From Actinomyces oris (GTDB lineage Bacteria > Actinomycetota > Actinomycetes > Actinomycetales > Actinomycetaceae): a DNA stretch of 64,000 nt. The stretch is from the NCBI RefSeq assembly GCF_006546825.1, contig NZ_VICC01000006.1, positions 620,001 to 684,000 on the forward strand, written 5' to 3'. The notes beneath the pieces are model-generated. The model was not told the origin of the DNA and did no database searches. It saw nothing but the letters and a program-made list of their open reading frames with translations. Below are positions 17,082 through 29,379 of this stretch, piece by piece (within the stretch, counting starts at the first letter, position 1; each line of letters starts with the position of its first letter). The translations under genes and the position numbers were made by a program.

Positions 17082-17143
17082 CATCCGACAAACCTGAGAG
17101 CTTTCTCATCCACCCCTAATCGTCATCTTCTTCTGGCCGGTCA

Positions 17144-17163
17144 GGATCGTTTCAGAACGATCC
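17144..17163. promoter_or_regulatory. Perfect dyad upstream of the glycosyltransferase cluster
   Basis: GGATCGTT and AACGATCC arms around TCAG, 30 bases before the first glycosyltransferase start. A weaker hairpin (TGAGA/TCTCA, 17095-17108) just after the DeoR-type stop may end that gene. The main dyad could be an operator or a 5'-UTR hairpin. Confidence 0.55.
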
Positions 17164-17193
17164 AGAACCGACACCGGGAGAAGAGAGACGATC

Positions 17194-18486
17194 ATGACGA
17201 GCGCTCCCCTACGCGTGGCCCTCTACAGCCACGATGCCAAGGGGCTGGGACACCTTCGCCGCAACCTCGCTCTGGCCCACCACCTGGCCCGGGCACTGCC
17301 GGGGCTCACCGGCCGTGACGTCACCGGCCTGGTCATCACCGGTCTGGCCCCGGGCCAGGAGTACCGCCTCCCCGACGGCTTCGACTGGCTGGTGCTGCCG
17401 GGGATCAAGAAGTCTAAGGGCATCTACCAGCCCCAGCGCCTGCGCATCACCCACGAGGACCTGGGCGAGGTCCGTAGCGCCCTGCTGAACGGCGTCCTGA
17501 GCACCTTCGCCCCGGATCTGCTCATCATCGACCGACACGCCTACGGGGTGCACCAGGAGCTGCGCGAGCCCCTGACTCACCTGCGCCGCACTCACCCCTC
17601 CGCGCGCGTGGTGCTCGGTCTGCGCGAGGTCCTGGACACCCCCGCAACCGTGCAGCGCGAATGGGATGAGCTCGGCGAGGCCGACACGCTGCGCCGGCTC
17701 ATCGACGAGGTCTGGGTCTACGGGGACGCCGCGGTCCACGACCTGAGCGCCACCGGCGAGGCCCCGCCTGCGCTGGAGGAGCGGATGCACTACACCGGTT
17801 ACCTCGCCCACGGTCGCGACATCGCCGAGCCCAGGGACGGCTCCGAGGCCTCACCCGCGTTGGCCGGTAACGCCCTGGACCCCGAGCCCTTCATCCTGAC
17901 GACCGCCGGTGGCGGCTCCGACGGCATCAACCTGCTGCGTGCCGCCGCGCAGGTACGCGTCCCTGACGGCTACCGGCATGTCGTGGTCACCGGCCCCCAG
18001 CTCGACGCCGCCCTGTTCCACCAGGTCGCTCAGGCGGCCGGTCCCCGCACCGTGGTGCGCCGGTCCTGGCCCGGCATGAGTCGTCACATCCAGCAGGCCG
18101 CAGCGGTCATCGCGATGGCCGGCTACAACACGGTCACCGAGATCCTCGCCTCCGAGACCCCGGCCCTCCTCGTCCCGCGCGAGACGCCTCGTCTGGAGCA
18201 GTTCATCCGGGCCTCCGGCCTGAAGAAGGCGGGCGCCGTCGACCTCCTGAGAGTCACGGATCTGAGTGCCGCAGCGCTGGAGGACCGGCTCTCCGAACTG
18301 CTGGGCGACCAGGAGGCCGCCCGTCGCCAGCTGACGGGGCGACGTCGTCTGCGTCTGGACGGCCTGGCCACGGTCCCCCTGCTGGCCGCCGAGCTCATGG
18401 ACCACCGACATGACGCTCCTACCACGAGCCCGACCTACCTCACCAGCCACGCCACCAGCCTCACCAGGATGGAGATCCCCGCATGA
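17194..18486 (+). CDS. GT-B fold glycosyltransferase (COG4671/MurG-like)
   Basis: A 430-residue protein with the N-terminal SHDAKGLGHLRRNLALA loop typical of the predicted glycosyltransferase family COG4671 and a C-terminal GT28-like donor-site region (AGYNTVTEILASETPALLVPRE). The C-terminal 20 residues are Thr/Ser-rich and unconserved. RBS GGGAGAAGAG precedes the ATG. First gene of a seven-gene run in which each stop overlaps the next start. Donor and acceptor unknown. Confidence 0.82.
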   Translation: MTSAPLRVALYSHDAKGLGHLRRNLALAHHLARALPGLTGRDVTGLVITGLAPGQEYRLPDGFDWLVLPGIKKSKGIYQPQRLRITHEDLGEVRSALLNGVLSTFAPDLLIIDRHAYGVHQELREPLTHLRRTHPSARVVLGLREVLDTPATVQREWDELGEADTLRRLIDEVWVYGDAAVHDLSATGEAPPALEERMHYTGYLAHGRDIAEPRDGSEASPALAGNALDPEPFILTTAGGGSDGINLLRAAAQVRVPDGYRHVVVTGPQLDAALFHQVAQAAGPRTVVRRSWPGMSRHIQQAAAVIAMAGYNTVTEILASETPALLVPRETPRLEQFIRASGLKKAGAVDLLRVTDLSAAALEDRLSELLGDQEAARRQLTGRRRLRLDGLATVPLLAAELMDHRHDAPTTSPTYLTSHATSLTRMEIPA

Positions 18487-19778
18487 ATCCCCCACTCGAC
18501 ACCCACCAGCCCCACCAGGGCGCCCCCCGTATCGGATACGTCCTCAAGGTCTACCCCCGCTTCTCGGAGACCTTCATCGTCACCGAGATCCTGGCCCGCG
18601 AGGCCCAGGGCGAGGACCTGAGCATCTATGCGCTGCGTCCCACAACGGACGCGCGCTTCCACCCCGAGATCGCCCGGGTCGCCGCCCGCGTCAACTGGGT
18701 GGGCCGGCCGCAGCGGGCCATCGACCTGTGGAGCCAGCTCACCGAGGGCCTGACCCGCCAGGAGGACCGCGAGCGCTTCGCCGCCATCATGCCGGTCCTG
18801 GCCGAGCTGCCCGGCGACGTGGTGGCCCAGGGAGTGGAGCTGGCGCGCCAGGCGCGCCGGGACTCCATCACCCACCTGCACGCGCACTTCGCGTCCCTGG
18901 CGGGACGGGTGGCGTGGATCGCCTCGGCCGTCACCGGTATTCCCTACACCGTGACCACCCACGCCAAGGACATCTTCCACGAGTCGGTGGACCCGGTGTG
19001 GCTGCGCCGGATCTGCGCCGATGCCCAGCGGGTCATCGCCATCAGCCGTTACAACGAGGACTACCTGGGCACCGTCCTGGCGGGCACGGGGGCCACGGTG
19101 TCGCTGCGTTACAACGCCCTGGAGCTGGATCGCTTCTCCTACCGTGCCCCGCAGCCGGTGTCCGCCACGAGGGCAGAGCCGCTGCGGGTGTGCGCCGTGG
19201 GTCGCCTGGTGCCCAAGAAGGGCTTCGCCGATCTGGTCGAGGCGGTGAGGATCCTGGTGAGCTCGGGGATCGATGTCGAGGTGGAGCTGGCCGGTGACGG
19301 CGATGAGCGTGAGCGCCTGACCGAGCAGATCGAGCGCCTGGGGCTGGCCGACAGGATCCGTCTGCTGGGGCCGCTCACGCAGGCGGAGGTGCGAGAGCTG
19401 CTGGCGCGCTCGGACGTGTTCGCGGCGCCGTGCATCGAGGCGGCCGACGGCAATATCGACGGTCTGCCCACGGTGGTCCTGGAGGCGATGGCCTGCGGGA
19501 CGCCGGTGGTGGCCACGGCGGTGTCGGGACTTCCGGAGGTGGTTCACGACGGCGTCACCGGGATTCTCCTTCCCCCGGGTGACCCGGCCTCGCTGGCCGT
19601 GGCCCTGCGCGGGATCGCACAGGGCGAGGTGGACATCGTTGCGCTGTCCCGCGGTGCGCGAGCACTGATTGAGGAGCAGTTCGACTCTCGGGCCCAGGCC
19701 GCGGTGCTGGCCGCCTGGCAGTCGGGTCCCGTCCCGGCTTCCGGCATGCGCCTGGCCGATCAGGAAGGAGCCGCCTGA
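18483..19778 (+). CDS. Glycosyltransferase family 4 protein
   Basis: A 431-residue GT-B enzyme. N-terminal YVLKVYPRFSETFIVTEI is typical of the WcaL-like GT4 branch; the C-terminal nucleotide-sugar region includes VGRLVPKKGFADLVEA, the LLGPL turn and an E-x7-E-like segment around AADGNIDGLPTVVLEAMACGTPV. Start overlaps the preceding stop (ATGA). Probably transfers a hexose or hexuronate onto the cluster's product. Confidence 0.88.
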   Translation: MNPPLDTHQPHQGAPRIGYVLKVYPRFSETFIVTEILAREAQGEDLSIYALRPTTDARFHPEIARVAARVNWVGRPQRAIDLWSQLTEGLTRQEDRERFAAIMPVLAELPGDVVAQGVELARQARRDSITHLHAHFASLAGRVAWIASAVTGIPYTVTTHAKDIFHESVDPVWLRRICADAQRVIAISRYNEDYLGTVLAGTGATVSLRYNALELDRFSYRAPQPVSATRAEPLRVCAVGRLVPKKGFADLVEAVRILVSSGIDVEVELAGDGDERERLTEQIERLGLADRIRLLGPLTQAEVRELLARSDVFAAPCIEAADGNIDGLPTVVLEAMACGTPVVATAVSGLPEVVHDGVTGILLPPGDPASLAVALRGIAQGEVDIVALSRGARALIEEQFDSRAQAAVLAAWQSGPVPASGMRLADQEGAA

Positions 19779-20946
19779 TGCGCATCGCCTACATCTGCTG
19801 CGACCCGGGCATCCCGGTGTTCGGGACCAAGGGCGCCTCGGTACACATTCAGGAGGTCGTTCGCGAGCTGCGGGCCGCCGGCCACGAGGTGGTGCTCTAC
19901 GCCCTGCGCTCAGGCGAGCACGTGCCCGCCGACCTGACCAATCTCGAACTGCACCTGGAGGCGGTCACCGACGTCTCCCCCGCTGAGCGGGAGCAGGCGC
20001 AGGTGCGTGCCGCCCAGAGGATTGCTTCGCGGGTCATCACCGACGGCGCTGACCTGGTTTACGAGCGCTACTCCCTGTTCTCCACGGCTCTGGCCGACAT
20101 CACGGCGGCCACCGAGGTGCCGGGGGTCCTGGAGGTCAACGCTCCACTGATTGACGAGCAGCATCGTCACCGCTCGCTGGTGGACGCCTCCGGCGCTGAG
20201 CAGGCGCTGCGCCGTCAGGTCGGGGCGGCTCGGGTCACGGTGTGCGTCTCGGACCCGGTGGCCGACTGGGTTCGCCGTCGCACCGCCGATGTGCCGGACG
20301 CGGAGGCTGTTGCCGCCAGGGTCCACACGGTTCCCAACGGTGTGAGCGTGCGCCGCATCCAGCCTCAGCCGGCGGACCCCGAGCGGGTGGTCGTCACCTT
20401 CGTGGGGACGCTCAAGCCCTGGCACGGGGTGGCCGACCTCATCACGGCGGCGGCCCTGGCGCGTCAGCGGTGGAGCCTGCGGATCATCGGCGACGGACCC
20501 GAGATGGAGACGCTCCGTGCGCAGGCCGAGCGCCTGGGGGTGGAGGCGGACTTCCGTGGGGCGGTCGCCCCTGAGGAGATTCCCACTCACATGGCGGGTT
20601 CAGCGATCGGGGTGGCTCCCTATCCGGATCTGGGGGGTCTGGAGCAGCAGTACTTCTCCCCCATGAAGGTCCTGGAGTACCTGGCCGCGGGGCTGGCGGT
20701 CGTGGCCTCCGACGTCGGTCAGATCCCCCAGCTGCTTGAGGAGGGATCGCAGCGCCACGGCGTGCTCGTGGCGCCCTCGGACCCCACGGCGCTGGCCGCG
20801 GCCCTGGATGATCTGGCGGCCTCCCCCCAGCGGCGGGCCCGGATGGGGCGTAACGGTCGTCTTCTGGCTGAGGAGCGCCACTCCTGGAATCGGGTCGTCA
20901 CCCGGATCCTGGGGCTGGCCGGCATCGCTGAGGGTGGTGGGCGGTA

Positions 20947-20947
<1 letters not shown>
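19778..20947 (+). CDS. Glycosyltransferase family 4 protein
   Basis: A 389-residue GT4 protein with the N-terminal GTKGASVHIQEVVRELRAAGHEV acceptor-side loop, then VTFVGTLKPWHGVADLI and the donor-site segment FSPMKVLEYLAAGLAVVASDVGQ. Stop of the preceding gene and its ATG share one base (TGATG). It differs enough from its neighbour that a distinct linkage is likely. Confidence 0.88.
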
Positions 20948-22769
<1,822 letters not shown>

Positions 22770-22773
<4 letters not shown>

Positions 22774-23987
22774 CTCCTTCGCTCATCAACGCGACGACCA
22801 CGGCCGACGCCGTCGCCGCGGTCCTCGACGCCGATCGGCTCAGTAAGCTCCTCGGGCGCCCGGTGCGGGCCGCCAGGCTGCGCATCAAGCCTGAGGTCTC
22901 GGTCCTGGTCTCCCTGACGGACCGGAGCACCGGGCTCACCGCGGGCTGGGCCCGCCTGCTCTGGCCGGTCTCGCACTCCAAGGCCGCTCAGGCCGAGCGC
23001 CTGGCCGCCTCCCTGGGGCTGCAGCCCCCCGTCACCCGGTCCCTGGACGAGGGCCTGCTGCTGCAGTGCGGTGCGGTCCTCACCGACCCCAAGCTGGCTG
23101 AGCCTCTCGCCCAGGCCACGGAGCTGGGGGTGCTGGGCAGCTGGGAGGCCCGGGACGTGCTGCGCTACAACCCCTCACGGCGCCTGGTCCTCCGGGACGG
23201 CTCCACGGTTCTGCGGCTGCGAACCGGCGGCGGGGGACCTGCCGACGACGTCCACCGCACCCTGTCCGGGCTCCTCCCGGTCCCCGGTCTGCTCGACTCA
23301 CAGGCCGTGGCCCAGTGCGAGGGCCGCGTCAGCGTGCAGCAGTGGTGCGGAGACACGAACCTGGCTGACGTCTATGCGGACAACGTTGATGGTCCGGCCA
23401 CTGCTCAGGGCCTGAAGGAGGCCACCAGGCGTGTGGGGGCTCTGCTGGCCGAACTGCACTCCTGCGCCGGGCAGCTGCCGGCGGACCTCATCGACCGGCT
23501 GCCGCATCAGCCTGCCGGCTCCCGGGAGCTGGCCGAGGTCCACGCTCGTCAGCTCGATGTCCTGGCCCCTGAGCTGGCACGCCGGGTACGGGCGGTGAGC
23601 GACATGCTGCCCTCCCACCTCCCCGGGACACCGGTTCTCACCCACGGTGATGCCTCCCCCGACCAGGTGCTCTACGAGTACTCGACCGGGCGGATCTGGC
23701 TGACCGACTTCGACCGGGTGTGCCTGGCGCCGGCGGCGACGGACCTGGGCTCCTACCTGGCGGAGGCACCGTCCTGTCAGCGGCATGCGCTGCTGGAGGG
23801 TTACGCCGTGCACCGGCTGGTACCGAGCGACGAGGAACTGGGGTGGGCGATCGCACTGTCCCGGCTGGCGCGACTGGCCGACCCCCTGCGACGGGCCCAC
23901 CCGTCCTGGCGTGAGCGCATCGGCGCGGACCTGGCCGCCATCGAGCGCATCGCCCGGTCGCCGGAGAAGGAGGCCAGCTGGGCATGA
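22770..23987 (+). CDS. APH/maltokinase-fold phosphotransferase, copy 1
   Basis: A 405-residue kinase-like protein. The catalytic loop HGDASPDQ (H292, D294, Q299) and the following metal-binding LTDFDR are clear. The usual metal-binding Asn of aminoglycoside kinases is Gln here, as it is in maltokinases, which favours a sugar substrate. The ATG forms an ATGA overlap with the exporter gene. Antibiotic resistance is possible by fold only; the operon context argues against it. Confidence 0.78.
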
Positions 23988-25081
23988 CGGACACGACGAG
24001 CACAACACCAAGGACTGAGATGACACAGACGACGGAGGCGGCCGACATGCTCAGCACGCTGCGGGCCATCCCCGGGCTGCGACGGGCCTGGCCCGCCGGC
24101 CGGGAATCGGAGCCGGCGAGCGTGAGCATCGAGTGCGTCGACGGCCAGGGCCGTCTGCGCGCCGGGCACGTCACCGTGGGGGGCGCCCCCGACCTGCTGC
24201 CCTACGCCAGTGACCCGGCCCTGCCGGCCCTGTCCAGGCAGCTGACCGGGAGACTCGTCGTCCACCGCGCCGGCCGCCGCGCCGTCGTCATGGAGACCTC
24301 CCGGGTCCGCAAGATGGTGCGGCCCCACAAGGCCGCCTCCCTGGTGCGGGCCCACACGACCGCCGCCTCGGTGCTGCGGGTCACCGGTCTGAGCACCCCC
24401 AGGATCCTCGGCAACGGGGACGACGTCGTTGACCTCGAGCTGCTGCCGGGCCGCAGTCTCGACGAGCTCGGTGACGCCGGCCTGCCCGGGTGGCAACGGC
24501 TCACGGAGGCCTGGTCGCTCCTGGGCGATCGTGAGGCGGACCTGCCCGCCCACGGGCCGCGTCAGGAGGCCCAGGTGCTGCAGCGCTGGCTGGCCTCCGC
24601 CCGCCGCTGCGGCCTCATCGACCAGCAGGATCTTCTGCACGAGCAGGTGGTGGACACCTGCCTGAGCCTGACAGAGGCGAGCGGGGTGCACGTCATCACC
24701 CACCGCGACCTCCACGACGGCCAGCTCCTGTGGGACGGAACCGACCTGTCCCTGCTCGACCTGGATACCGCGGCCATGGCCGAGGCGGCCCTTGACCTGG
24801 GCAACCTCTGGGCCCACGCGGATCTCATGGCGGTTCGCGGCCGGATCGGCCCCGAGGCCCACGCCCGGGTCCGCGGGCTGCTCGACGACCTGGCCCGCGC
24901 ACTGCCCGTGACGGAGCAGCGCCTGGAGACCTACTACCGCTCCTCAGCGCTGCGGCTCGTCTTCGTCCACGCCTTCCGGCCCGCCGCCCACCGGTGGCTG
25001 CCGATCTGGGTGCGCCACTGCCTGGGAGACGCCTCCCCCTTCATGTCCCTGGACCTCACCAACGATTGGAACGACTCATGA
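23984..25081 (+). CDS. APH/maltokinase-fold phosphotransferase, copy 2
   Basis: A 365-residue kinase-like protein with catalytic loop HRDLHDGQ (H240, D242, Q247) and metal-binding LLDLDTA about 16 residues later. The Asn-to-Gln change is shared with the preceding gene although the two are otherwise quite different. ATGA overlap with copy 1. The N-terminal lobe is short and ends with the KMVRPHKAASL basic stretch. Likely phosphorylates a carbohydrate precursor or product of the cluster. Confidence 0.76.
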   Translation: MTDTTSTTPRTEMTQTTEAADMLSTLRAIPGLRRAWPAGRESEPASVSIECVDGQGRLRAGHVTVGGAPDLLPYASDPALPALSRQLTGRLVVHRAGRRAVVMETSRVRKMVRPHKAASLVRAHTTAASVLRVTGLSTPRILGNGDDVVDLELLPGRSLDELGDAGLPGWQRLTEAWSLLGDREADLPAHGPRQEAQVLQRWLASARRCGLIDQQDLLHEQVVDTCLSLTEASGVHVITHRDLHDGQLLWDGTDLSLLDLDTAAMAEAALDLGNLWAHADLMAVRGRIGPEAHARVRGLLDDLARALPVTEQRLETYYRSSALRLVFVHAFRPAAHRWLPIWVRHCLGDASPFMSLDLTNDWNDS

Positions 25082-26406
25082 CCACCCCTCTTAAGCTCAC
25101 CGTCATCGGCTGCGGATACCTCGGTGCCGTCCATGCCGCTGCCATGGCCCACCTGGGACATCACGTCCTGGGGATCGATACGCGACCCGAGCAGGTCGAG
25201 GCCCTCTCCCAGGGCCACGCCCCCTTCTATGAGCCCGGGCTGCCCGAGCTGCTGGTCACCGGGGCCCAGCAGGGAGACCTGCGCTTCACCTCAACGCCGA
25301 CGCCGGCCGAGCTGGCCGAGGCCGACGTCCATTTCATCGCCGTGGGGACCCCGCAGTCCACCACTGGTGGGGAGGCCGACCTGAGCCAGCTGTGGAGCGT
25401 GGTCGACATGCTTCACGACGCCCTGCCCGAGGGTGGGCGCAGCCTGGTGGTGGGCAAGTCCACCGTCCCGGTGGGTACCGTCCAGCGGGTGGCCGAGCGC
25501 CTGGCCGGACGCGCCCTGGTGCTGTGGAACCCCGAGTTCCTGCGTGAGGGCTTCGCCGTGGCCGACACCCTCCACCCCGACCGCATCGTCTACGGGGTCC
25601 CTGCCGATCCCGCCGACGCCCAGGAGGCCCAGGCCGTGCTCGACGCCGTCTACCAGGACCTGCTGGAGGAGGGCATCCCCCGGATCGTCACCGACTACCC
25701 CACCGCCGAGCTGGTCAAGACCGCGGCGAACTCCTTCCTGGCCACCAAGATCAGCTTCATCAACGCCATGGCCCACCTGTGCGACACCGCCGGGGCCGAC
25801 GTCACCGTCCTGGCCGACGCCATCGGCCACGACCCGCGCATCGGTCGGCGATTCCTCCAGGCCGGCGTCGGCTTCGGCGGAGGCTGCCTGCCCAAGGACA
25901 TCCGGGCGCTGCGGGCCAGCGCCGACCTCCACGGCGCCGTGCACTTGGCGGACCTGCTGGGCCGGGTCGACTCCATCAACCGCGAGCAGCGCGACCGGAT
26001 CGTCGAGCTGGCCCGCACCCACGTGGGCGGCGACCTGTCCGGTCGGGCGATCACCATCCTGGGGGCGGCCTTCAAGCCCCTGAGCGACGACGTACGCGAC
26101 TCCCCCGCCCTGGACGTCGCCTCCCGTCTGGCCGACCTCGGGGCCGAGGTCACCGTCTGCGACCCACAGGCCCTGCCCGTGGTGGCCCGCTCCCACCCCC
26201 ACCTCACCCTGGAGGACGACCCCCGCGCCGCGCTCAAGGGAGCCGAGCTCGTCCTGCTGCTGACCGAGTGGGACCAGTTCGTGGCCCTCGACCCCGTTGA
26301 GGCCGCCACCGGCGTCGCCGAACGCGTCATCATCGACGGACGCAACGCCCTGGACCCGGTGACCTGGCGTGAGGCCGGGTGGACCTACGCGGGAGTGGGA
26401 CGCTGA
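25078..26406 (+). CDS. UDP-glucose/UDP-N-acyl sugar 6-dehydrogenase
   Basis: A 442-residue enzyme of the UDP-glucose/GDP-mannose dehydrogenase family. NAD-binding GCGYLG is at the N terminus, GTPQS and KSTVPVGT follow, and the catalytic cysteine C270 lies in FGGGCLPKD. It should oxidise a UDP-hexose to the uronate using two NAD. UDP-glucose is the default; an N-acetylhexosamine substrate cannot be excluded. ATGA overlap with the kinase gene makes it the last gene of the run and the likely source of UDP-uronate for the glycosyltransferases. Confidence 0.87.
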   Translation: MTTPLKLTVIGCGYLGAVHAAAMAHLGHHVLGIDTRPEQVEALSQGHAPFYEPGLPELLVTGAQQGDLRFTSTPTPAELAEADVHFIAVGTPQSTTGGEADLSQLWSVVDMLHDALPEGGRSLVVGKSTVPVGTVQRVAERLAGRALVLWNPEFLREGFAVADTLHPDRIVYGVPADPADAQEAQAVLDAVYQDLLEEGIPRIVTDYPTAELVKTAANSFLATKISFINAMAHLCDTAGADVTVLADAIGHDPRIGRRFLQAGVGFGGGCLPKDIRALRASADLHGAVHLADLLGRVDSINREQRDRIVELARTHVGGDLSGRAITILGAAFKPLSDDVRDSPALDVASRLADLGAEVTVCDPQALPVVARSHPHLTLEDDPRAALKGAELVLLLTEWDQFVALDPVEAATGVAERVIIDGRNALDPVTWREAGWTYAGVGR

Positions 26407-26431
26407 ATCGGGCCGCTCCCGGCTCCGCCCA

Positions 26432-26470
26432 TGCCCGGATCCATGGGGCGGAGCCCAGTGGATCCGGGCA
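26432..26470 (+). promoter_or_regulatory. Large hairpin between the sugar cluster and the two-component genes
   Basis: Perfect 12-base arms (TGCCCGGATCCA / TGGATCCGGGCA), a one-base bulge, four more pairs (TGGG/CCCA) and a GCGGAG loop. It ends 10 bases before the GTG of the sensor kinase and lacks a T-run. It could end the upstream transcript, attenuate read-through, or be a dyad operator over the kinase promoter. Confidence 0.7.
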
Positions 26471-26474
26471 CAAT
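26469..26474 (+). promoter_or_regulatory. Candidate -10 element of the sensor kinase gene
   Basis: CACAAT followed by six bases and GTG; it overlaps the final two bases of the hairpin. Confidence 0.4.
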
Positions 26475-26480
26475 GGCGAG

Positions 26481-28010
26481 GTGACCTCACTGCTGCCCAC
26501 TCGTACCGTCACCATCGGAACCCGCGTCATGTGGGCGATCGTGCTGGTGGCCGGCATCGCGCTGGTCATGTGCGGGGCGATCGTGTGGGCGCTGGGGCTC
26601 TCCAGCGTGTCGGCCGACGCCACCAACCGGCTCGAGCACAGCCGCGACCGGATCCGCCAGCTGGCCGCCGACAGGCAGGACCCCTCCAGCGGTCAGCCCC
26701 TGGAGGACGTCTCCGCGGTTCTGCGCACCCACATCCAGCGCACTGCCGAGGGGCGCGGTGAGGCCGAGCTCGGCTTCGTGGGCACCGATGCCAGTACGAA
26801 GCTGACCTGGGTCTCCGCAGACAACGTCTCCTTCCGCCCCGAGCAGGACAAGGAGCTGCTCACTCGGGTCTCCTCCCAGGCCGCCGCCTCGGAGTCCGTC
26901 ATCGAGACGGTGCGCACCCCCACCTCGAGCTACCGGGTCCTCGTTGTCCCGTTGCAGGGCGGCGCCCAGCGCGGCGCACTCGTGCACGTCATCGATCTCA
27001 AGGTCGCCGAGTCCCAGCTCCGGCGCACCATGGCCTTCTACGCGGCCGCGGCCGTGTTCACCGTCGCCCTGGTGACGGGTCTGGCCTGGTTCGCCGTCGA
27101 GCGGCTCCTGCGCCCCATCGAGCAGCTGCGCCGAGCCACCGAGTCCATCGGCGAGGAGGACCTGACCACCCGGGTACCGGTCAAGGGCCGGGATGACCTG
27201 ACGGCCCTGGCCGCGGCCGTCAACCGGATGCTCGACCGGGTCCAGACCTCGGTGGAGGCCCAGCGCAACCTGCTGGACGACGTCGGCCACGAGCTGCGCA
27301 CCCCGATCGCCGTGGTCCGCGGTCACCTCGAGCTCACCGACCCCGCGGACCCCGAGGACGTGCGCCAGACCCAGCTGCTGGCCCTTGACGAGCTCGACCG
27401 GATGGGGATGCTCGTGGGCGACCTGATCCTGCTGGCCAAGAGCGTCCAGAGCGACTTCGTCACCCCGGCGGACACGGATGTCGCCGAGCTGACCGAGCTG
27501 GTCTTCGACAAGTCCCTCGCCCTGGGTGAGCGCCGCTGGAAGATGGAGTCGGCGGCCTTCACCCGGGCCATGGTCGACCCCACCCGGATCACCCAGGCCT
27601 GGCTCCAGCTGGTGGCCAACGCGGTGAGGTACTCCGAGCACTGCTCCACCGTGTCCCTGGGCTCGGCCGTTCGCGACGGCCACCTGCAGATGTGGGTCAG
27701 GGACGAAGGCATCGGGATCGCCCCTGAGGACATCGACCTGGTGCGCCAGCGGTTCAAGCGCACCGCCGGTGCTCAGAAGCTCGCCTCTGGAACGGGACTG
27801 GGGCTCAGTATCGTCGAGACAATCGTCGCAGCTCACGGCGGGAGGCTGGACATACTCTCTGAGGTGGGCCGAGGATCGGTGTTCACCATGGTGATCCCTC
27901 TCAGGCCCCCCACCGCCGTGGCCTCCTCCCGAGGCGACGCCCTCGCACCTGCCGGGGACTCGCTCCCCGCTCAGCCCCCGACAGCCTCCCGAAGGAGTCA
28001 CTCACCATGA
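26481..28010 (+). CDS. HAMP-containing sensor histidine kinase
   Basis: A 509-residue membrane kinase: TM1 about residues 12-34, an extracytoplasmic sensor region about 35-185, TM2 about 187-210, HAMP (RLLRPIEQLRRATESI onwards), HisKA with phospho-acceptor H270 in DVGHELRTP, and an ATPase domain with N (LVANAVRYS), G1 (DEGIGI) and G2 (GTGLGLS) boxes. GTG start by context. It overlaps the response regulator gene (ATGA). Proximity to the sugar cluster suggests control of that cluster or response to envelope state. Confidence 0.92.
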   Translation: MTSLLPTRTVTIGTRVMWAIVLVAGIALVMCGAIVWALGLSSVSADATNRLEHSRDRIRQLAADRQDPSSGQPLEDVSAVLRTHIQRTAEGRGEAELGFVGTDASTKLTWVSADNVSFRPEQDKELLTRVSSQAAASESVIETVRTPTSSYRVLVVPLQGGAQRGALVHVIDLKVAESQLRRTMAFYAAAAVFTVALVTGLAWFAVERLLRPIEQLRRATESIGEEDLTTRVPVKGRDDLTALAAAVNRMLDRVQTSVEAQRNLLDDVGHELRTPIAVVRGHLELTDPADPEDVRQTQLLALDELDRMGMLVGDLILLAKSVQSDFVTPADTDVAELTELVFDKSLALGERRWKMESAAFTRAMVDPTRITQAWLQLVANAVRYSEHCSTVSLGSAVRDGHLQMWVRDEGIGIAPEDIDLVRQRFKRTAGAQKLASGTGLGLSIVETIVAAHGGRLDILSEVGRGSVFTMVIPLRPPTAVASSRGDALAPAGDSLPAQPPTASRRSHSP

Positions 28011-28666
28011 GCCGCATCCTCATCGTTGAGGACGAGCCCCGCATCGTCGCCTTCCTCACCAAGGGTCTCAAGGCGGCCGGGTTCACCCCCCACACCACCG
28101 CCGAGGGCGGGCAGGCCGTGGCCCTGGCGGTCCAGGAGGACTTCGACCTCATCATCCTGGATGTGGGCCTGCCCGACATCGACGGCTTCGAGGTGCTCCA
28201 GCAGCTACGCGGCCAAGGAGTGGGAACGCCGGTCATCATGCTCACGGCGCGCTCCTCGGTGGCCGACCGCGTCGCCGGCCTGGAGGGCGGCGCGGACGAC
28301 TACATGCCCAAGCCCTTCTCCTTCGAAGAGCTCCTGGCCCGCATTCGGGTACGGCTGCGCCCGGATGCCACCGGCCCTGACCAGATGCGCCTGACCCACC
28401 GCGACATGGTTCTGGACCTGCGCACCCGCACCCTGACACTGGAGGGCAGGACCGTGGAGCTCTCCGCCAGGGAGTTCGCCCTGGCCGAGACCTTCATGCG
28501 CCACCCCGGTCAGGTCCTCAGCCGCGAGCAGCTGCTGAGCGCCGTGTGGGGGCTGGACTTCGACCCCGGCTCCAACGTGGTGGAGGTCTATGTCTCCTAC
28601 CTGCGCAACAAGCTGGGAAGGCAGCGGGTGGAGACCGTGCGCGGCATGGGCTACCGGCTCATCTGA
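28007..28666 (+). CDS. OmpR/PhoB-type response regulator
   Basis: A 219-residue regulator. The receiver has the acidic pair at EDE, phospho-acceptor D52 in LDVGLPD, and K in MPKPFSFEELLAR; the C-terminal winged helix includes VELSAREFALAETFMRHPGQVLSRE and the VVEVYVSYLRNKL recognition helix. Cognate to the preceding kinase by overlap. Confidence 0.94.
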   Translation: MSRILIVEDEPRIVAFLTKGLKAAGFTPHTTAEGGQAVALAVQEDFDLIILDVGLPDIDGFEVLQQLRGQGVGTPVIMLTARSSVADRVAGLEGGADDYMPKPFSFEELLARIRVRLRPDATGPDQMRLTHRDMVLDLRTRTLTLEGRTVELSAREFALAETFMRHPGQVLSREQLLSAVWGLDFDPGSNVVEVYVSYLRNKLGRQRVETVRGMGYRLI

Positions 28667-28699
28667 TCCGCGGCGCCGGCCGTCTCGTCAGCCGTCCGC

Positions 28700-29197
28700 T
28701 CAGTCATCGTCGCGGTCGTCGTCATCGGCTTCCTTCACACCGTTCCTGGCCGGCTTCTTGTCGTCGTCATCATCGTCCACATCGGTGCGTCCGGGGGCGG
28801 CCGGTGCGGTGGTCCCGGCCGGGGCAGCCGGTGCGGCGGGGGCCGGCTGGCGATGGCCGTGGTCGACGGCGACAGGCGGGTCGGGCTCCACCGCCTGAGG
28901 CGCGTGCCCCTGCGTCGAGGAGTCCGATGAGGTCCAGGAGTCCGCCGCGGAGTCGCCGGACTCGTGCCGGGTGGAGCCGGCACCGCCGCCGGCAGTCGAG
29001 CTCTGCGTGGCCGTCACAGAGGACTGGGACGAGGTGACCCGTGGGGTTGCCGTCAGGACGATTCCCGGTTCCTTCGCGGACTCGGCGGGGTGGGAGAAGA
29101 CCATGCGGGTGACTGCGAGCAGGAGACCCGCGGTCACGATGACAACGGTGGTGGCCACGACGCGGCCACGTCCGAAACGATGCAGCAGACTCGCCAT
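28700..29197 (-). CDS. Single-pass membrane protein with disordered Asp-rich tail
   Basis: A 165-residue protein: a short basic N terminus, one hydrophobic segment (about residues 12-33), then a Ser/Thr/Ala/Pro-rich region and a C terminus holding two runs of six and four-plus aspartates. ATG at 29197 was chosen because it places the hydrophobic segment near the start. It converges on the response regulator gene with 33 bases between. No known domain; the acidic tail could bind cations or cell-wall partners. Confidence 0.6.
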   Translation of the reverse strand: MASLLHRFGRGRVVATTVVIVTAGLLLAVTRMVFSHPAESAKEPGIVLTATPRVTSSQSSVTATQSSTAGGGAGSTRHESGDSAADSWTSSDSSTQGHAPQAVEPDPPVAVDHGHRQPAPAAPAAPAGTTAPAAPGRTDVDDDDDDKKPARNGVKEADDDDRDDD

Positions 29198-29362
29198 TCC
29201 AGCGTCCCCCTTCTGCCCGGCTCTGGCTTGACGGGACCTGCCCGACTTTTGTCGACCGTAACATGAATAAGAGGACAAAGCACCGGAGCACGACGCCGGG
29301 GAGTGACAGAACTGATCCGCGGGCTTGTCGCAATCAGCACAACTCCGCGGCGCCCGGTATCA

Positions 29363-29376
29363 CTCGCGGGCGCGAG
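29363..29376 (-). terminator. Short palindrome after proA
   Basis: CTCGCG and CGCGAG arms around GG, four bases past the proA stop. Weak, with no U-tract. Confidence 0.35.
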
Positions 29377-29379
29377 GGG

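Follow-up and report, generated by a model that had tools for sequence, protein, structure and literature searches.

A conserved glycosyltransferase, exporter and kinase gene unit in Actinomyces oris and its possible role in saccharide export

What might nine consecutive genes of Actinomyces oris, which encode three glycosyltransferases, an ABCB-type exporter, two aminoglycoside phosphotransferase (APH)-fold kinases, a nucleotide-sugar dehydrogenase and a two-component system, produce together, and do they constitute a unit beyond closely related strains? The genes occupy positions 17194-28666 on the plus strand of a 64,000-nucleotide stretch of a 3.17 Mb genome (contig NZ_VICC01000006.1, 620,001-684,000); this whole stretch is hereafter called the window, and all coordinates are positions within it. 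An earlier note, made from the sequence alone, had proposed here an unrecognised cluster for the synthesis, phosphorylation and export of a glycoconjugate. Comparison of this locus with its relatives revealed a core of transferase, exporter and kinase genes linked across several phyla, and gene content suggests a horizontally spread operon that makes and secretes a phosphorylated saccharide, often otherwise anionic, a reading which we regard as evenly balanced between right and wrong.

Linkage and spread of the core

Co-conservation of the genes outside close strains had been set beforehand as a test of the proposal. A locus was counted as core-type when the GT28-type transferase (GT28) and a GT4 transferase were both encoded on the strand of the exporter, no more than four genes ahead of it, a definition which tolerates fused or swapped transferase genes and, in L121, L170 and L171, also a kinase gene between transferase and exporter. 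The core so defined was held by 116 of the 133 loci examined, and in 108 of these a kinase gene was present within four genes after the exporter. Broken down by anchor, core-type loci comprised 29 of the 30 reached with kinase 2, 66 of 80 with GT28, one of three on plasmids (that of Paracoccus aestuarii) and all 20 with the second GT4 transferase (GT4b), with a downstream kinase in 29, 60, 1 and 18 of them, respectively. Because each locus had been retrieved through its resemblance to kinase 2, GT28 or GT4b, the proportion of 116 in 133 measures linkage and not frequency among genomes.

The sampling behind these counts differed between anchors. Of 198 genomes in the order, 42 had a match to kinase 2, its own genome included, and 30 of the 41 other matching genomes were examined, the remaining 11 being among the weaker matches. 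The GT28 anchor contributed 80 loci from named genomes, whilst 20 of 22 additional matches were examined for GT4b; some genera recur between the anchor sets, and L047 and L103 probably stem from the same genome. Genes of the relatives were called with a simple codon-usage script, and their barrel, sensor kinase, regulator and dehydrogenase genes were labelled by BLAST.

Core loci reach seven phyla as read from record titles, with Planctomycetota, Chloroflexota, Gemmatimonadota and Nitrospirota represented by metagenome bins. This linkage across phyla rules out a strain-specific island. A comparison of gene order across Actinomycetales had been suggested by the earlier note; carried beyond that order, the comparison indicates that the linkage is real, but that the unit is not specific to Actinomycetales. 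The same nine genes are found in A. oris P6N (BLAST identities of 83-96%), the last of them cut by a contig end. A starred ten-row group of the exporter tree (100/98) joins the Actinomycetaceae with Rothia, Corynebacterium and Arachnia, and suggests transfer among actinobacterial families. Loci of these three genera (L073, L074 and L076) encode GT4a and exporter proteins 61-66% identical to those of the window, and a dehydrogenase is also present in them.

GT4b was the sharpest marker of the unit; in an alignment of 19 rows drawn from several phyla, its mean column identity was 51%. Of 23 linked genomes or records, most of which had themselves supplied rows to its profile, 22 gave one match each at a cut-off of 1e-60 (E ≤1.2e-156). 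The marker was found in at least 2 of 398 Pseudomonadota and at least 12 of 396 Actinomycetota genomes, with four candidates scored per genome, and in 12 of 117 Cyanobacteriota, with 16 candidates scored; these counts include the centres G218, G208 and G000.

The 17 non-core loci were L068, three that were cut short or held the GT28 gene alone (L096, L135 and L140), and thirteen others in which GT28 occurs with GT4a or GT28 copies and without this exporter run. Four of the thirteen (L109, L112, L115 and L152) have, instead of the exporter and kinases, a histidine phosphatase together with a second GT28. Three of these clusters (L112 10001-16156, L115 4083-10257 and L152 9956-16373) have the order GT28, GT4, GT4, histidine phosphatase, second GT28 and a deacetylase-like gene, the last of which in L115 matched DUF2334 below the cut-off only.

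All nine open reading frames of the window and their junctions were confirmed by inspection, including the overlaps of one or four bases and the 74-base gap that the earlier note had described, and each assignment is backed by Pfam (Table 1). Every part is from a known superfamily. The best solved match of the GT28 profile (A1) was MurG 1f0k (E 5.5e-11), whilst the nearest NCBIfam model of GT4a was EpsE, at 198.1 bits against a cut-off of 400.

Table 1. Features of the locus, in window coordinates
Feature	Position	Strand	Basis and remarks
Putative response-regulator operator: three 11-bp direct repeats (CTCAT/CTAAT/CTTCT type)	17103..17133	+	Footprint alignment of seven upstream regions
GT28/MurG-like glycosyltransferase, 430 aa	17194..18486	+	Pfam Glyco_tran_28_C 34.9 bits; first gene of the core
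GT4a glycosyltransferase, 431 aa	18483..19778	+	Pfam Glycos_transf_1 123.8 bits; 4-base overlap with GT28
GT4b glycosyltransferase, 389 aa	19778..20947	+	Pfam Glyco_trans_1_4 94.2 and Glycos_transf_1 86.6 bits; 1-base overlap with GT4a
ABCB-type exporter half-transporter, 608 aa	20947..22773	+	Pfam ABC_membrane and ABC_tran; 1-base overlap with GT4b
APH-fold kinase 1, 405 aa	22770 (ATG)..23987	+	Pfam APH 67.4 bits, scored on the version from an upstream GTG at 22644; 4-base overlap with exporter
APH-fold kinase 2, 365 aa	23984..25081	+	Pfam APH 31.5 bits; 4-base overlap with kinase 1
Nucleotide-sugar (UDP-glucose type) 6-dehydrogenase	25078 (ATG)..26406	+	Three UDPG_MGDP_dh Pfam domains; 4-base overlap with kinase 2
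HAMP sensor histidine kinase	26481 (GTG)..28010	+	Pfam HAMP, HisKA and HATPase_c; 74 bases after dehydrogenase; upstream GTG at 26379 likewise open
OmpR/PhoB-type response regulator	28007..28666	+	Pfam Response_reg and Trans_reg_C; 4-base overlap with sensor kinase
Stretch between deoR and proA, missing in two same-genus genomes	17082..29379	.	Comparison with L174 and L175

Kinases, exporter and accessory genes

At the metal-ligand position of the catalytic loop, the usual residue of APH enzymes is Asn. Alignments of 38 rows revealed Gln instead in both kinases: the catalytic loop of kinase 1 reads HGDxSxDQ, with the final Gln in all 38 rows, and that of kinase 2 HRD[LF][HY]xxQ, with the final Gln in 36 of 38. 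The metal loop is DxDR in kinase 1 (Asp in 38 of 38 rows) and DxD in kinase 2 (38 of 38), and a D-x-H was present in 33 of 38 kinase 2 rows. According to PMC6520443 and PMC4306142, the magnesium ligands are Q305 in the glucosamine kinase GlcNK and Q310 in maltokinase, a Gln ligand that both kinases of the unit share. AlphaFold2 (AF2) models of the two proteins had mean pLDDT values of 95.0 and 91.9, respectively. In Foldseek searches the top match of kinase 1 was maltokinase 4u94 (E 2.9e-10), and maltokinases 5jy7 and 4u94 and the GlcN kinase 6hwl took ranks 1, 3 and 4 for kinase 2, all of these matches having low TM scores of 0.40-0.47 and about 16% identity. Maltokinase was not among the 50 best rows for either kinase with VIA-align, which we did not count as evidence against it, and sequence searches of solved structures with the kinase profiles returned generic APH-type matches only. 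Judged by these motifs and models, both kinases appear to be active, with a metal site of the maltokinase kind. Amongst long kinase reading frames picked for inspection, 17 of 19 contained the motifs of both kinases in a single frame.

Walker A, signature and Walker B motifs of the exporter are intact, at residues 394, 498 and 518. Against solved bacterial relatives it scored 292 bits with Sav1866 and 245 bits with MsbA, both of which were outscored by eukaryotic full-length ABCB proteins through two half matches. Some ABCB relatives export glycans or glycolipids. The scores of the exporter, given here against the curated cut-offs, were 366 of 602 bits for MsbA_lipidA (TIGR02203), 390 of 780 for MsbA_rel, 313.6 of 725 for HepA, 239.8 of 585.4 for chvA/NdvA and 139.4 of 1000 for PglK. 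The protein is a fusion of ABC_membrane and ABC_tran, and not an ABC-2 permease with a separate ATPase of the KpsMT or Wzm-Wzt kind. A Pfam scan of the nine proteins found no initiating phosphoglycosyltransferase, Wzx flippase or Wzy polymerase, and no GT2 synthase, which upholds the view of the earlier note that this is not a standard Wzx/Wzy or ABC-2 capsule locus.

A gene for an outer-membrane barrel of the AlgE or OprB type follows the kinases in 14 of the 34 diderm core loci, L133 being counted among the diderms (Alginate_exp in four, OprB in ten). Alginate_exp (PF13372) was found at this place in L117, L133, L134 and L145, and OprB (PF04966) in L125, L127 and L128; by BLAST label, OprB follows the kinases in 7 of 11 cyanobacterial samples, and L131 and L138 had barrel-like matches under the cut-off. 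Both families are rare, with copies per genome numbering 0-3 for Alginate_exp (nine genomes) and 4-10 for OprB (twelve genomes), and in G212 and G218 the cluster-linked barrel was the sole Alginate_exp found. BLAST labels assigned an AlgE/OprB barrel to none of the core loci from Actinomycetota or Chloroflexota.

The dehydrogenase surpassed the cut-off of the NCBIfam model NDP-sugDHase (TIGR03026; 378.4 bits, cut-off 189.8), and missed those of the UDP-glucose-specific equivalogs TuaD (331.6 of 700 bits) and AglM (323.8 of 670). It was present within eight genes of only 17 of the 116 core loci, which rules it out as a core gene; on this distribution it is an accessory. As the gene is an accessory, the uronate-containing product proposed earlier can apply to no more than a part of the family. 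A second nucleotide-sugar dehydrogenase gene is located near a contig end of the same genome (G000:C2:203185-203991), and a protein of 51% identity is encoded in L002.

Sulfotransferase genes (Sulfotransfer_3) lie beside or within the operon in L108, L129, L170 and L171, as found in a scan limited to genes picked by eye at those loci. L170 (1710-3619) has two tandem copies after the kinase, with one unscanned gene between, and L171 (2427-5276) has three followed by a nucleotide-sugar dehydrogenase gene; both are Actinomycetota of another family. From their gene content, these two loci might make the product in a sulfated or uronated form.

Regulator pair, upstream repeat and absent site

A sensor kinase and a response regulator were encoded within eight genes of 51 of the 116 core loci, variously before, after or divergent from the core. 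When the cluster-linked regulator of Gloeocapsopsis (L127) was used as the query, the window regulator was the best match in its genome (240 bits, the next being 170), and the sensor kinase of L127 likewise retrieved the window kinase (235 bits, the next being 131). At the level of protein similarity, these wide margins show that the pair is orthologous between Actinomyces and the cyanobacterial copy and that the two-component system is part of the unit, in agreement with the earlier claim that the cluster has its own. The earlier note also had the cluster sense envelope state, which it may do; the comparisons back co-inheritance of the pair and a conserved repeat ahead of the operon.

The triple repeat begins 91 bases before the GT28 start. 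Tandem direct repeats with a period near one helical turn, placed ahead of the target gene, are characteristic of OmpR/PhoB-type operators, and the predicted operator has this form. A matrix built from 20 sites of 29 training loci, for which the lowest reachable p was about 0.003, found the repeat at p<0.01 in 40 of 43 held-out actinobacterial loci (missing L074, L091 and L101), and the repeat was present in 17 of 19 held-out loci whose GT28 is less than 55% identical to any training GT28. Scores of at least 10 were obtained for 63 of 72 regions upstream of GT28, training loci included, and for 4 of the 435 regions upstream of other genes at those loci. Among further Actinomycetota loci (L143 and L165-L171) it was found at p<0.01 in five of eight, and it also precedes clusters without a nearby regulator pair (for example L050, L056, L079 and L120). 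A pattern written from the window site had one match in the genome, at the cluster, and its reversed control likewise had one; this shows the lack of a wider regulon of that exact form and is not in itself a measure of significance.

In L089 (19785) and L095 (19737), a protein of 128-129 amino acids with a signal-like start is encoded beside, and divergent from, the histidine kinase. Similar triple repeats lie upstream of both genes, with scores of 12.5 and 13.7, and the L089 protein had no Pfam match; from the position of the repeats, the small protein is a possible second target of the regulator. Between the triple repeat and the GT28 start of the window, a perfect 8-bp inverted repeat (GGATCGTT-TCAG-AACGATCC) is located at 17144-17163, and was rejected as a conserved element since, of seven upstream regions compared, it occurs in those of the window and A. 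oris and is absent from the other five. Scans for a sigma-70 promoter and for a terminator found nothing.

In the window, the interval from deoR to proA contains the nine-gene block, the triple repeat and, beyond the regulator gene, a minus-strand open reading frame of 165 amino acids (28700-29197) with a hydrophobic N-terminal stretch, in which a Pfam scan found no match. In L174 and L175, two genomes of the same genus without a kinase-2 match, the deoR and proA matches are 21 and 67 bases apart. The simple reading of this comparison is that the whole block was gained or lost. A ROK gene precedes deoR in the window and went undetected at the L174 and L175 sites, hence the regions differ by more than the nine-gene block.

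The product and its known counterparts

Gene content, order, motifs and linkage all support the original idea of a synthesis, phosphorylation and export cluster. In such a cluster the regulator would bind the triple repeat and turn on the operon, and three cytosolic transferases would build a short saccharide, with the MurG-like GT28 probably acting on a membrane-bound acceptor encoded outside the operon. The kinases would phosphorylate sugar hydroxyls, either of the saccharide or of a sugar entering it; the exporter would carry the product over the cytoplasmic membrane, and in diderms the barrel would release it. Lineages may add further negative charge, by a uronate donor in Actinomyces and its relatives and by sulfotransferases in certain Planctomycetota and in certain other members of the Actinomycetota. 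Taken together, the barrels, sulfotransferases and dehydrogenase point to a secreted, often anionic saccharide. The earlier note had left the product as an oligosaccharide or glycolipid; the barrels of the diderm loci favour the former in secreted form, and an envelope glycolipid becomes less favoured. A fuller version would have a short glycan made by three GT-B transferases and phosphorylated by a dedicated maltokinase-like kinase pair, exported in finished form by the ABCB protein, released through an AlgE/OprB barrel in diderms, and controlled by a co-transferred two-component switch acting, in Actinomycetota, at one CTCAT triple-repeat operator, the whole amounting to an unrecognised cross-phylum route; this we advance tentatively, with less than even confidence.

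Several observations weigh against the reading of a secreted phosphorylated saccharide. The barrel was not seen in 20 of the 34 diderm core loci, four of which end too early, and G198 and G199 bear the core together with an Alginate_exp gene that is unlinked to it. GT28 and GT4a are also paired in clusters without this exporter and kinases, most cyanobacterial samples have one kinase gene, and outside Actinomycetota the repeat reached p<0.01 at just 2 of 45 loci, non-core loci included (L151, Paracoccus, and L157, a cyanobacterium). The GlcNK substrate motif Q-x(2)-RE-x(2)-YA-x(3)-LP-x-W was found in 0 of 38 rows of kinase 1 and 0 of 38 of kinase 2. Furthermore, high VIA-align ranks went to LxmK and to the homoserine and methylthioribose kinases for kinase 1, and in the case of kinase 2 to methylthioribose kinase and APH(4), which makes the substrate class of the kinases uncertain. 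The core also contains no initiating enzyme, polymerase or ligase from which the acceptor and the length of the product might be read.

Were the transferases to act on diacylglycerol or polyprenol, with the kinases phosphorylating the head group in the manner of WaaP and the exporter flipping the product, the outcome would be a membrane glycolipid retained in the envelope. The exporter is akin to MsbA and Sav1866, the GT28 profile is nearest to MurG, itself an enzyme on a membrane lipid, and monoderm loci lack a recognised outer-membrane or polymerase gene, all of which accord with a glycolipid; however, the barrels that stand right after the kinases in diderm loci do not, and besides the core and the two-component pair each gene family was present in at most 8 of 32 clustered gene sets, although the lesser families, the dehydrogenase apart, may include a lipid gene. 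On balance we consider a glycolipid unlikely. The same ceiling of 8 in 32 applies to any aglycone-forming family, and this tells against a small molecule, that is, a glycosylated and phosphorylated signal or antibiotic exported in phosphorylated form, for which the kinases would be self-protective. Streptomycin-6-phosphate is exported in phosphorylated form, OprB barrels let small saccharides pass, and the combination of three transferases, APH-fold kinases and one exporter resembles aminoglycoside clusters; even so, the identity of GT4b across phyla is unlike that of a fast-diversifying natural product, and a small molecule seems to us quite improbable.

A further alternative concerns the kinases themselves, which could supply sugar phosphates to nucleotide-sugar or phosphorylase steps, as maltokinase does with maltose-1-phosphate, with the exported glycan left unphosphorylated. 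The Gln metal ligand and the Foldseek top matches, common with maltokinase and GlcN kinase, and the D-x-H of kinase 2 are consistent with such a supply; on the other hand, neither a nucleotidyltransferase nor a GlgE-like protein turned up in the Pfam scan of the nine, and the kinases are mostly encoded beside the exporter and often fused together. This possibility, which overlaps both the secreted phosphorylated saccharide and the glycolipid, we hold to be somewhat unlikely.

No characterised counterpart with the same gene order, which the earlier note had named as a second refuting condition, was found in searches of the open-access literature, nor were the gene combination, its cross-phylum spread or the upstream repeat found described there; passages of PMC12419801 contained no matching cluster. 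Sinorhizobium msbA2 was considered and rejected, the surroundings of the pSymB match being without kinases in the listed genes, from an incomplete gene table, or in the gene calls. Genes that are usually filed singly, as a glycosyltransferase, an ABC transporter or an aminoglycoside phosphotransferase, here appear as one conserved unit. Should the reading of a secreted phosphorylated saccharide hold, a phosphoglycan export route would be added beside the textbook ones, caution would be due in labelling these kinases as antibiotic resistance genes, and a single operon, with its operator, regulator and exporter, would offer a handle on a glycan that oral Actinomyces and soil actinobacteria would secrete. 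With the absent site, and with GT4b as a strongly conserved marker, presence/absence and knock-out comparisons become straightforward.

Amongst known systems, exporters of the MsbA, Sav1866, NdvA and HepA type are likewise full-length ABCB half-transporters with intact ATPase motifs, whereas the exporter of the unit scores under all the curated cut-offs of the MsbA, HepA, chvA and PglK families. Maltokinase (Mak) and GlcNK have in common with both kinases the APH fold and the Gln magnesium ligand, and rank high by Foldseek E-value, but the kinases of the unit differ in their context of ABCB exporter and glycosyltransferases, in being two paralogous and often fused proteins, and in the absent GlcNK substrate motif. 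The GT28 clusters of Azospirillum- and Desulfobulbaceae-type records contain related GT28 and GT4 genes in an order shared with the core, and differ, in the four loci named above, by the histidine phosphatase and second GT28 that stand in place of the exporter and kinases. An AlgE-family outer-membrane barrel, a feature that does not apply to the monoderm host of the window, is common to alginate-type synthase-dependent secretion and four diderm relatives; unlike that system, the nine genes encode three GT-B transferases and an ABCB exporter and no GT2 synthase. In the assembly of lipopolysaccharide, WaaP phosphorylates the core and MsbA exports the product. The nine-gene block has a different kinase family and no lipid A gene, but its logic of phosphorylation followed by export would be alike.

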